Below, in pieces: positions 55,547 to 61,877 of a stretch of 64,000 nt of DNA. The notes beneath the pieces were generated by a model. It searched no databases. It was not told where the DNA came from and saw only the letters and a program-made list of their open reading frames with translations. Source of the DNA: Kiloniellaceae bacterium (lineage in GTDB: Bacteria; Pseudomonadota; Alphaproteobacteria; Kiloniellales; J153); contig JAJFGL010000036.1 in NCBI GenBank assembly GCA_021776135.1, positions 1 to 64,000 on the forward strand, written 5' to 3'. Every line of letters begins with the position of its first letter. The stretch's first letter is position 1. The translations under genes and the position numbers were made by a program.

Positions 55547-55619
55547 TCCGGGGGCAGGGGGCAAATTCGGACTATAGATCAGGAAATACTTTACCTGCGC
55601 CATAGCTGGGACTGGCGCT

Positions 55620-55704
55620 GTGCGTCCTTCGACAAGCTCAGAATGAGGACTTTTCTTAATGCCATTCACAATTATCCTCATCCTGAGCTTGTCGAAGGAC
55701 GCAC
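55620..55704. repeat. Paired inverted REP arms (BIME-like)
   Basis: GTGCGTCCTTCGACAAGCTC continuing to 55649 is repeated inverted at 55675-55704 around a 25-base loop. It is the same element type as 31091-31194. It lies in the coaD / tRNA-Lys gap of 278 bases, where no gene is seen. Confidence 0.85.
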
Positions 55705-55824
55705 AGGCGGGACTGGCGTTCCAAATGCGATTACCCTGGCAAGATAAGCGGCTTCGGCTTGACCCCCGCGCGGCGCCCGGCCTATGGTCGCGCCGCCCGC
55801 GCTGGCATAAGCGATTCTTGGCAA

Positions 55825-55900
55825 GGGCCCGTAGCTCAGATGGTAGAGCAGCTGACTTTTAATCAGCGGGTCACAGGTTCGAATCCTGTCGGGCTCACCA
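55825..55900 (+). tRNA. tRNA-Lys (anticodon TTT)
   Basis: 76 bases from GGGCCCG to an encoded CCA. The D-arm starts TAGCTCAG, the anticodon loop CTTTTAA (TTT at its centre) sits on a GCTGA/TCAGC stem, and the T-arm carries GGTTCGAATCC. The acceptor stem GGGCCCG pairs with CGGGCTC except one wobble pair. Genomic debris begins directly after the CCA, the usual position for integrated islands. Confidence 0.96.
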
Positions 55901-55928
55901 AGGATATCAAGGGGTTAGGCAAAACCGC

Positions 55929-57694: not shown

Positions 57695-57928
57695 TCACGC
57701 TGCCTCCCCGTCGGGAATGCGCTGGCGGGACTCGATCCAGGCGTCGATTTCGTCGGCCCTGAAATACAACCGCTTGTTAATGCGAACCGGTGTCGGGAAA
57801 CCTAAATTTGGATCGCGCAGGAAGCGCCAAAGCGTGACCTCGGAAACGCCGCCGAGTTGTTCCCGGACGCGCTTGGCCGTTCGCAATTCGATACCTGAAG
57901 CAGGAGGCCTGGGGAGTGTCTGAGACAT
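57695..57928 (-). CDS. AlpA/excisionase-type helix-turn-helix protein
   Basis: 77 residues with a MerR/Xis-like winged helix: LGGVSEVTLWRFLRDPNLGFP and TPVRINKRLYFRADEIDAWIESR. Proteins of this type regulate excision or early genes of integrated elements. It precedes the primase fragment in the same direction, the standard order in tRNA-associated islands. The DNA upstream is AT-rich and gene-free. Confidence 0.75.
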   Translation of the reverse strand: MSQTLPRPPASGIELRTAKRVREQLGGVSEVTLWRFLRDPNLGFPTPVRINKRLYFRADEIDAWIESRQRIPDGEAA

Positions 57929-58186: not shown

Positions 58187-58298
58187 ATGCGACCGTATCA
58201 ACCACCAAGAGCGCGGCATGACGATCTGTTCCACGCCCAACTCGGTCAGATCACCACCCTAAAACACCAGCTTGTCGCCCTGGCGGACAAGATCGATT
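58187..58298 (+). pseudogene. N-terminal remnant of an IS5-type transposase
   Basis: ATG 58187 starts MRPYQPPRARHDDLFHAQLG and continues QITTLKHQLVALADKIDW, which resembles the amino-terminus of IS5/IS1182-type transposases (D-L-F-x-x-x-L-x-Q-I ... L-V-x-L-A-x-x-I-D-W). It is cut at 58298 by the terminal repeat of the IS6-type element, and no continuation is found on the other side. Confidence 0.6.
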
Positions 58299-58348
58299 GG
58301 CATTGACACGTTAACTGCCGCGGTCGCCAGATTCGATCGTGATCCGCA

Positions 58349-58659
58349 TCAGGCGGCAAGCCAACCTTGATTCCAGACAGACAAGGTCTCGGCTCGAAAC
58401 GCCTTGAATATACGTCGGGATAGAAGATGGCGTTGGACGTAGAAGGCGTTGTAGACGGCGGCGTGAATCGACAGGAACCGTTGGGCTGATCCTGGCAACT
58501 TGAACCGCTGCTGTTTTCGTTCTCGGCGACGGACCGGCTGGTGTGAATTCTCGGTTCGATTGTTCGCTCGAAATCCCTGATCGTGAACAGTGGTAAGTCG
58601 CTCTTTGCGGATGGCGACAGCGTAGGATCTGAGTTTGTCCGTGGTGATGCGCTTTGGCG
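58349..58659 (-). pseudogene. IS6-type transposase C-terminal fragment (left)
   Basis: The minus strand reads SPKRITTDKLRSYAVAIR, then HDQGFRANNRTENSHQPVRR, RERKQQRFKLPGSAQRF and ends VWNQGWLAA before TGA (58349-58351). This is the last ~100 residues of an IS6-family DDE transposase, with the second Asp and the Glu region. It lacks the N-terminus and start codon. Confidence 0.75.
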
Positions 58660-59115
58660 AAAATCCCTATCCGTGATCGTAATCACTGGCTGCGGCGGGC
58701 GGTAGACAACGAAGGCGAGGTGCTCGACTTCCTGGTCCAGCCACTACGATGCGCTAAGTCGGCGAGGCGATTACTGCGAAAGCTGCTGAAGAAGCAGGGC
58801 TTCGCGCCGAAGCGCATTACCACGGACAAGCTCAAATCATACGCCGTCGCCATTCGAATAGAGCGACTGAATGCGGCCCATGATCAGGGACTGAGAGCCA
58901 ACAATCGGGCGGAAAACTCCCACCAGCCAGTTCGGCGGCGAGAGCGGAAACAACAACGGTTTAAGCCGCCTGGGTCAACCCAACGTTTCCTGTCGATCCA
59001 CGCCGCCGTCTACAACGCCTTCTACGTCCAACGCCACCTTCTGCCACGCCACATCTTCAAGAATTTTCGTGCCGAGACGTTTGCTGTCTGGAAGCAGAGT
59101 TGCCTCGCAGCGTGA
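58654..59115 (+). pseudogene. IS6-type transposase C-terminal fragment (right)
   Basis: From DRNHWLRRAVDNEGEVLDF through FAPKRITTDKLKSYAVAIR, RANNRAENSHQPVRRRERKQ to the end WKQSCLAA, this is the last ~145 residues of an IS6-family transposase. The first catalytic Asp and HTH are missing. TTG at 58654 opens the frame only because of the junction with the left half. Confidence 0.75.
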
Positions 59116-59225
59116 CCGAGGTCACGGCGAATTGCGGCCGACCGCGCCGGTTAACGTGTCAATGCCGTTTGACATGCCAACGGTCCTTTGTACCCGGTAT
59201 GTTGGACCGTCCGGGGCCAAAAATG

Positions 59226-61877
59226 CTAGTTTGAGCCGCGCCGCAATGCGGAGACGGCCTGCTGAAGTCCATTTGCCATGCGGTCCGCCCGGTCTTCTTC
59301 TTCGCCCATGGCGTCCAGCCGATCCACGGTCATCGGATCGCCAAACCGGATTAAGATCCGCCGGAATCGAGGCAGACGTCGCCCACGCGGCATGGCTTCA
59401 TATGTGCCCTGAATGAGTGTGGGAACGGCAACAGCCTTGGACCGCTGCATCAAGATGCCGATCCCTGGAAGGAACGGCCTGATTTCTCCGGTGGGTGACC
59501 TGCGGCCCTCGGGAAACCAAACCAGCATTTGTCCGCGATCGAGGACGGCCTTACCGAGGGCAAGGCTACTTGCCGGCCCACGATCCGGGTCGACAGGGAA
59601 AACCCTCGTGATCCGGCTGAGGAGGCGGCTGCCTGGTCCGGCGAACATCTTGCCGGTCCATCCAGCCCAATAGGTATGCTGGAGAGAGCGAAAAGGCACT
59701 GCCGCGGCGATAGCCAAGGGGTCGAGTAAGCTTACGTGGTTCGGGACCACGATATATGGACCGTCGCGCGGAAGCCTCTCCACGCCTTCCACCCGGAGCC
59801 GAAAAAGACCGCGCATGACCAGCCAATTCAGAGCCAACACCAGCGTGCCTAAGAGGGACAGAAGCGGCCCTATAGGTTGCAACCATCGGAGTTCATCCGG
59901 CGTTACAGACTGAGCGTCCGTGACGTCCCGGCGGTCGCGCTTCTCACCCGCGGCTGTCGTCACTTCCAGCAAAAGGTCTCGTATCGTGACGATCCGCGCG
60001 ATCGCGTCGCCCGTCAAGCCGATGCCAAAGCGCTCCTGGATTTCTAGGCTCAGGGTCACCCATTCGAGCGAGTCTATCTGTAGATCGAGCTGTGGACTGG
60101 TGTCGAGAGTGAGGATTTTCTCGGAAAATCGCTGTACGAGCCACTCCCAGACTCCATTTGCCGGCTCCGACGCCAACAGGCGGCGGTCCTCTTCGGACAG
60201 CTCCGGCGCGACAAGGGGTGCGGCGGCGCGCTCTGCCCTGTCGTAGATGCCGGATAGTAGATGACGCCGCAACTTGCCAAGATGTGTGCGAGGCAAGGCC
60301 TCGCGGGTCAAGATGTAACCGGATATGCGCTGGTAAGGCGGCAATCGAAGAGAGATATCCTCGATCTCCTCTCGCAGAAGGTCTCGGGCTCGTGCCGATC
60401 CTCTTGTGCGTATGGCTTCGTCGTCGGGAACAAAGAGACCGGCCAGGGCGCCGTTACGCTCGAGGATCGCGACCTCCCGAATCAGCGGGTTGGAAGCGTA
60501 GGCGTCTTCGACATCCTCGGGCAGCACGTTTTTCCCGCCGGGCAGGACGATGACCTCTTTCTCGCGTCCAACGAGGTGAAGATAACCGTCCCGGTCTACA
60601 AATCCGAGGTCGCCGGTACGAAACCATCCATCCGGTGCAAAGGCGAGATTTGTCGCTTCCGGGTTGTTTCGATAGCCCGCAAACACATTGGGTCCGCGCA
60701 CGAGGATATCTCCGGACGGCTGTCCGGCTTTCGCCTCTATGCGGAGCTCGACACCGGGCAGCGGCAGTCCGGCCGAGTCGATCCGTGCACGGCCACGCCG
60801 GTTGAAGGTGACGATAGGGGAGGTTTCTGTGAGGCCGTAACCGGTCAGGACCTCCCAGCCAAAAGCCTCGAGTTTCCAAGCGGCCTCAGGATCGAGCCGT
60901 GCGCCCCCGCACCCCAGAACCCGGAGATCGGGACCCAACTCGCGGTGCAGCCTTCGAAAGACAAGCCCGCCGACCCGAACTCCAAACTTTCTACGAATAA
61001 ACATCGATGCCTTTAGCAGGAACCGGAAAACAGACCGTGCCGCTAAACCGAGCCTCCCGGCCTTGCCCTCGATCGCGGACAGCAACGCGGAATAAAGGCG
61101 CGGCACGCCGACGAGGATTGTCGCTCTCGATACTTTAAGCGCTTCGGTGATCTGTGGCCCACTGATACCGGCCGGCAGGATAACCGCACCGCCACTTGCA
61201 AGCGTACCGAGAAGACCGACAGTGAACGGGTAGGCATGGTGGAGCGGCAATGGGAGCAGCGTGCGATCTTCGGGCCCGGCCATCTTGCCCGCTAATATCG
61301 CCGCTACATTCGCCAAGATATTCCGGTGGGTTAGAGGTACCGCTTTCGGTGTTCCCGTGGTGCCGGAGGTATACAACAGGGAAGCGACCTCGTCGGGCTT
61401 AATCTCGGGGAGACTGACCTGACGTTCCGTAAGCAGGTCTCGCCAAGACTTTACGTTCTTCCCGTCGTTGCTGCCATCGAGCAAGACGATGTCCATTTTA
61501 GCCGCTATATCTAGCGCCTTAAGGGCCGGCACGTGATTTCGCGACGTGAACACGCGCCGGGCGCCGCTATCGGCAACGACGCGGGCCAATTCTCGATCGC
61601 TGGAAAGGTCGTCTAGTGGAATCGCGAGCGCGCCCGAACGGACAATGGCAAAATAGGCAACGATCCACTCCGGTGAGTTCGGCGCGCAAAGCAGCACGGG
61701 CTCACCACGGCCCACTCCACCCTCGACCAGCCCCCTGGCAAGCTTCGCGATAGTGTTCGCCAGATCGGCGTAGGTCCATGTTTCCAAGCCATGATCGCGG
61801 AGCGCGATAACGGCGGCTGCCGCACGCCGGCTGGACAGGCCTTCCGCCATTTCGGCGAGGGTCTGAAAACTGTTCAC
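59226..61877 (-). CDS. AMP-ligase / ACP / acyltransferase fusion protein
   Basis: 883 residues in three modules. Residues ~1-520 are an adenylate-forming acyl ligase (SLLYTSGTTGTPKAVPLTHRN, TGYGLTETSPIV, GWFRTGDLGFVDRDGYLH). Residues ~570-640 are an acyl-carrier domain with the phosphopantetheine Ser in QIDSLEWVTL. Residues ~680-880 are a PlsC-type acyltransferase (VVPNHVSLLDPLA with H-x4-D, WFPEGRRSPTGE). One protein could thus activate a fatty acid, load it and esterify it, as Aas does with a separate ACP. The start is GTG with GGAG upstream. Its operon partners are an MFS carrier and an M28 peptidase. Confidence 0.88.
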   Translation of the reverse strand: MNSFQTLAEMAEGLSSRRAAAAVIALRDHGLETWTYADLANTIAKLARGLVEGGVGRGEPVLLCAPNSPEWIVAYFAIVRSGALAIPLDDLSSDRELARVVADSGARRVFTSRNHVPALKALDIAAKMDIVLLDGSNDGKNVKSWRDLLTERQVSLPEIKPDEVASLLYTSGTTGTPKAVPLTHRNILANVAAILAGKMAGPEDRTLLPLPLHHAYPFTVGLLGTLASGGAVILPAGISGPQITEALKVSRATILVGVPRLYSALLSAIEGKAGRLGLAARSVFRFLLKASMFIRRKFGVRVGGLVFRRLHRELGPDLRVLGCGGARLDPEAAWKLEAFGWEVLTGYGLTETSPIVTFNRRGRARIDSAGLPLPGVELRIEAKAGQPSGDILVRGPNVFAGYRNNPEATNLAFAPDGWFRTGDLGFVDRDGYLHLVGREKEVIVLPGGKNVLPEDVEDAYASNPLIREVAILERNGALAGLFVPDDEAIRTRGSARARDLLREEIEDISLRLPPYQRISGYILTREALPRTHLGKLRRHLLSGIYDRAERAAAPLVAPELSEEDRRLLASEPANGVWEWLVQRFSEKILTLDTSPQLDLQIDSLEWVTLSLEIQERFGIGLTGDAIARIVTIRDLLLEVTTAAGEKRDRRDVTDAQSVTPDELRWLQPIGPLLSLLGTLVLALNWLVMRGLFRLRVEGVERLPRDGPYIVVPNHVSLLDPLAIAAAVPFRSLQHTYWAGWTGKMFAGPGSRLLSRITRVFPVDPDRGPASSLALGKAVLDRGQMLVWFPEGRRSPTGEIRPFLPGIGILMQRSKAVAVPTLIQGTYEAMPRGRRLPRFRRILIRFGDPMTVDRLDAMGEEEDRADRMANGLQQAVSALRRGSN

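Follow-up and report, generated by a model that had tools for sequence, protein, structure and literature searches.

The window, a stretch of 64,000 nucleotides, is the start of contig C30 (224 kb) of the genome designated here as G000. Positions 58299–59166 hold an imperfect palindrome of 868 bp, a dead remnant of the IS6 family, hereafter the hybrid. It is flanked on the left by a fragment of an IS5-type transposase gene and an AlpA-like gene and on the right by a synthetase-like gene (the last two labels are our own), downstream of a tRNA-Lys gene in window coordinates. The features of the locus are listed in Table 1.

Table 1 Features of the hybrid and its surroundings in window coordinates. 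Positions on other contigs are given as contig:coordinates.
Feature	Position	Strand	Remarks
tRNA-Lys gene	55825–55900		3' part repeated at C30:98116–98183 (93%) and C30:112204–112258 (96%)
AlpA-like gene	57695–57928	-	Sub-threshold HTH_17 match only
IS5-type transposase N-terminus, 37 codons	58187–58298	+	Cut off at the IS6 terminus
Terminal inverted repeat GGCATTGACACGTTAA	58299–58314	+	Outermost part of the left half; identical to both ends of C34:163309–164111
Left half: final 370 nt, at the right end, of an IS6-family element; transposase gene running leftwards	58299–58668	-	92% to the C34 copy, 433–803
153-aa ORF across the joint: IS6/IS240 DDE domain without a start, normal 3' stop	58654–59115	+	PF13610, NF033587
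Head-to-head junction	58668–58669	.	G002:C30 exact over 58641–58668, then diverging; alignment of the right half starts at 58669
Right half: final 498 nt, at the right end, of another, diverged IS6-family element; transposase gene running rightwards	58669–59166	+	81% to the C34 copy, 306–803
Terminal inverted repeat	59151–59166	-	Outer edge of the right half
Synthetase-like gene	59226–61877	-	AMP-binding, PP-binding and acyltransferase domains

The palindrome consists of inverted arms of 331 nt (58338–58668 and 58796–59126; 78% complementary) and edge arms of 28 nt (58299–58326 and 59139–59166; 93% complementary). The inverted alignment of the left and right halves scored 209, whereas 500 shuffles of the left half that preserved dinucleotides scored 28 at best, and the foldback of the strand is strong (z -19 versus 20 shuffles). 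The edge repeats are perfect over 16 bp, as the short terminal inverted repeats of an intact IS6/IS26 element would be, and are identical to those of C34:163309–164111, a complete two-ended copy of 803 bp in the same genome, with stops in its gene. When C30:1–164000 was scanned for the terminal repeat with up to three mismatches, these two sites were the only ones detected, and the IS240 profile run across G000 matched contig C30 at the hybrid only. Both edges of the hybrid align to the right (transposase 3') end of the complete copy, so that the right end is present twice instead of one left and one right end, with the left half on the minus strand and the right half on the plus strand. In agreement with the first-pass annotation, the locus thus carries two right ends with terminal repeats at both edges, and diverged transposase 3' halves that meet head-to-head. 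The meeting point proposed there (~58657) was shifted to 58668/58669, because the exact match to G002:C30 of a genus relative ends at 58668 and the right half starts at 58669.

The left half corresponds to the right-hand 371 nt of the C34 copy in reverse. Its C-terminal transposase part is a single open frame through to the stop and scored 36.4 bits to PF13610 (profile 58–135) in the whole-genome profile scan; a 49-aa ORF from this half had no Pfam or NCBIfam match. The 153-aa ORF across the joint scored 80.1 bits to PF13610 (cut-off 27; profile 13–135 of 139), which identifies it as homologous to the IS6 DDE enzymes, and 99 bits to the IS6 transposase model NF033587, below the cut-off of 125 (profile 77–200 of 202). 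As the latter match begins at position 77, the ORF is not a complete transposase with the DDE triad and the N-terminal DNA-binding domain. The DDE triad of the IS6 family is described in PMC6807381. The LDE motif of the C34 copy sits just beyond the sequence kept by either half; we read its Asp as the first catalytic Asp, which would hence be missing from both. Each half lacks the left end and the N-terminal part of the transposase. The halves share 78–79% identity, and their nearest relatives differ; two parents are therefore needed.

The first-pass annotation had advised looking for the parental copies elsewhere in the genome. No near-identical parent of either half was found in G000: among 40 of 45 candidates scored, none exceeded 92%, the best being 92% for the left half and 81–86% for the right half. 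The longest exact stretch that the hybrid has in common with any other compared locus is 59 nt. In a search of 38 genomes (up to 13 candidates scored per genome), 11 gave some match; the full 868 bp was present in the window's own genome and was not found in the 37 others. The complete copy was matched in seven of nine genomes of the bacterial family (up to 40 candidates scored). Partial matches to the hybrid occurred in 158 records of a plasmid collection, none covering 80% of it.

Six other two-ended close copies were read, including the full-length C34:163309; this count excludes two full-length, more distant copies, also two-ended, of ~805 bp (G005:C116:22538–23342 and G001:C67:188488–189293). 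Five of the six have lost internal sequence while keeping normal polarity (C34:113898, two on G002:C4, G005:C116:10721, and G008:C368), and decay of these copies is usually by internal deletion. The first of them (G000:C34:113898–114105) is a MITE-like derivative of ~210 bp in which the left 148 nt adjoin 61 nt from the right end; its right edge is degraded. At G002:C14:15185–15622, two left ends lie in direct order, ~120 nt of one copy being followed immediately by the left end of another. Contigs C7, C19, C47, C51, and C62 of G000 end inside IS6 copies, and the family copy number in this genome is therefore probably underestimated.

Comparison of the similarity profiles indicates mosaic structure within the right half. 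Its nearest relatives switch ~156 nt from the joint, from C62/C34-like before to G008:C177-like after. In permutation tests, which treat sites as independent and used pairs picked after viewing the profiles, this break was equalled in 0 of 5000 permutations versus C62, 0 of 5000 versus C34, and 2 of 5000 versus G003:C71. A test of C34 against G001:C12 for the right half gave 161 of 5000, and we do not claim a mosaic from it. Nor is one claimed for the left half, where one pair gave 39 of 5000 and two others gave 459 and 4273.

Self-comparison of 229 loci for inverted repeats ≥120 nt long, with arms within 3 kb of each other, returned 16 rows, of which 11 were the hybrid itself and the remaining five were in L118, L128, L134, L135, and L195. 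Transposase matches on both strands were present in seven of 80 named loci; these loci are a part of at least 536 confirmed stretches, and the numbers are counts rather than frequencies. Two pairs, both in other alphaproteobacteria, have the same head-to-head polarity as the hybrid, with one partner truncated at its 5' side. In L134 (Mesorhizobium), a full-length plus-strand copy (residues 4–231) begins beside a minus-strand copy truncated at residue 98, which ends beside the left terminus of the plus copy as read by eye (the automatic terminal-repeat alignment was weak, with a score of 8). L128 (Siccirubricoccus) has a minus-strand copy (residues 11–195) facing a plus-strand copy that is truncated at residue 87. 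The identical pair in L135 (Rhizobium johnstonii pRL7) is tail-to-tail, and the matches in L063, L112, L118, and L141 are in other arrangements. A second pair with both 5' parts gone was not found among the loci compared. The L134 and L128 pairs look like earlier steps toward the hybrid.

The left edge of the hybrid abuts the IS5 stub, which corresponds to residues 1–37 of an annotated IS5 transposase of 448 residues (54%, E 2e-8 by direct comparison). A tblastn search with the stub matched 29 plasmid records; the ten matches listed were 51–59% over residues 1–37, six of them annotated as IS5 family transposase. Neither Pfam nor NCBIfam gave a match for the stub. The 300 bases to the right of the hybrid (59167–59466), compared with one IS5 transposase and two IS5-bearing loci, gave nothing better than E 0.1. 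The older IS5-type remnant that had been proposed as interrupted was thus found on the left side only, and the stub is cut off at the IS6 terminus and not visibly interrupted. The stub is found beside the AlpA-like gene also in a genus relative (G001:C42:24677–24842), where the similarity stops 16 bases earlier, at 58282; the IS5 stub is therefore probably older than the hybrid. There is no 8-bp target duplication at the hybrid (4 of 8 positions match), and the flanks of five other two-ended copies match at 0–3 of 8 positions, the sixth (C34:113898) being left out for its misplaced and degraded edge. Elements of the IS6 family commonly lack a target duplication, so its absence is not diagnostic (PMC7986276).

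The hybrid lies in what appears to be an island at the tRNA-Lys gene. Direct repeats of the tRNA-Lys 3' end (window 55842–55909 and the two C30 positions in Table 1) bound apparent islands of ~42 and ~14 kb. The backbone of G001 and G003 passes from gyrA and coaD across tRNA-Lys and within ~2.5 kb reaches sequence matching C30:112267 onward. This short junction suggests that the two islands are in tandem here; tandem islands were not seen at the tRNA-Lys site of G001 and G003. On G001:C42, ~220 bp separate the AlpA-like gene and its neighboring IS5 stub from the integrase stretch that is located in G000 at C30:96740–98160. The ~38 kb between the stub and the integrase stretch in G000 is absent from G001:C42, and the hybrid stands at its left edge. 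The right flank from 59237 aligns to the synthetase-like gene in relatives, and in G001 and G003 this gene and the gyrA stretch are on separate contigs; G002 gave no match to the gyrA stretch. Import of the ~38-kb DNA by IS6 elements is possible. Searches of C30:1–164000 by terminal repeat, complete-copy similarity, and IS240 profile gave no IS6 partner at its right edge. The idea that the segment was a circular unit, based on the arrangement in G002, was rejected: the gene blocks are rearranged in one way in G002 and in another in G003, with no clean circular permutation. A short sequence at window ~55582–55739 has many matches across G000 and genus relatives among those listed, often in both orientations at one place, and looks like a dispersed intergenic repeat.

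The hybrid is probably the wreckage of two diverged IS6 copies that were brought head-to-head and then lost their center. Two copies of one IS6-type element would have come to lie in opposite orientation with their left-end (5') halves facing, probably by insertion of one copy into the other or by a deletion that extended up to it; the layout of L134 would be the expected product of either event. Intramolecular IS6 transposition leaves an inverted second copy (PMC7986276), as described also in PMC5142620. Illegitimate end-joining or replication slippage could then have deleted the facing left ends, both transposase 5' parts, and anything between, and the two 3' halves with their right termini would remain as the present palindrome. 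DNA that is strongly prone to foldback is liable to central deletion. The first-pass annotation had suggested recombination between two copies in inverted orientation. Two inverted copies are indeed needed, but recombination alone is insufficient: we reason that ordinary recombination of inverted copies would leave normal left-right elements, and a central deletion by illegitimate joining is required as well. Against this origin stand the lack of a near-identical parent in the assembly, a final step seen at no other locus compared, and the lack of a target-site duplication that would tell how either copy arrived. Slippage usually uses some microhomology; none was found at 58668/58669 versus the closest relatives compared, which are not the true parents, and this counts weakly against the deletion.

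An artificial joint, in which two separate IS6 remnants were fused at 58668/58669 by metagenome assembly or a chimeric read, is the likeliest of the alternatives. The family breaks the assembly, as seen from the five contigs ending inside its copies, the source genome was probably assembled from a metagenome, and the left and right flanks of the hybrid are on different contigs in G001. The joint nevertheless lies within the long contig C30, and the longest exact match near it among the loci compared (28 nt, ending at 58668) is to another genome, while matches within the own genome extend only to 58659. Between the halves, inverted identity is longest over 38 nt from 58428, away from the joint. 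That no exact match crosses the joint, and that it falls in no repeat shared among the loci compared, lowers the concern. As neither half had a match better than 92% among the 40 of 45 candidates scored in the genome, the assembly would have to lack the unjoined parents, which copies collapsed at contig ends could still allow. Judged from these comparisons, an assembly chimera is unlikely.

Two functional explanations appear less probable still. The perfect repeats at both edges, a length near that of the full element, and six stop-free IS240-domain frames of 232–235 aa in G000 would accord with a non-autonomous mobile unit whose two right ends both function and which the IS6 transposases of the genome move in trans. 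However, the full hybrid was seen once in the 38 genomes at the search depth given above and has no target duplication, and around the six intact frames the similarity to the gene of the complete copy is 66–68% or limited to short pieces, leaving no evident matching enzyme; such a unit is very unlikely. It is slightly harder still to credit that a palindromic IS6 unit with two right ends is movable by a matching transposase today, which would make end polarity dispensable for mobility. The strong foldback might instead suggest a long hairpin kept for a function in setting the synthetase-like gene apart from the next gene on its strand, the AlpA-like gene, and the position between two minus-strand genes would fit, although it is weak by itself. 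With 22% of positions differing between the halves, and no copy of the hybrid detected among genus relatives at the search depth used, a retained hairpin is the least credible of these explanations.

The hybrid also differs from the known systems that it resembles. It resembles the IS6/IS26 family (IS240-type DDE transposase) in its terminal repeats, its length of ~0.8 kb, and the C-terminal domain of the transposase, and differs in lacking the left end, a complete transposase, and a target duplication, with the right end present twice. The natural hybrid IS1006/1008 (PMC7885326) is likewise an IS6-family element from two parents, but is described with normal left-right polarity and a working transposase, whereas the present hybrid is inverted and dead; the closer parallel to IS1006/1008 is the mosaic right half. 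The IS6-family MITEs of 227 and 336 bp reported in PMC7986276 have IS ends at both edges and no working gene, as here, but carry both IS ends, and the hybrid with its two right ends is not a MITE in this sense. IS15, an IS inserted into an IS, is a comparable nesting of relatives of one family, and the account of it in PMC7986276 that we consulted does not mention a central deletion or a two-right-end product. A literature search for hybrid or two-right-end IS elements found none described in titles or abstract openings, which does not prove absence from print. If a unit with two right ends were mobile, it would bear on the choice of ends by IS6 transposases. As wreckage, the hybrid is of specialist interest only: a clear fossil, bordering extra DNA within a tRNA-Lys island, indicating that diverged IS6-family copies can fuse 5' face to 5' face with the loss of both left ends.
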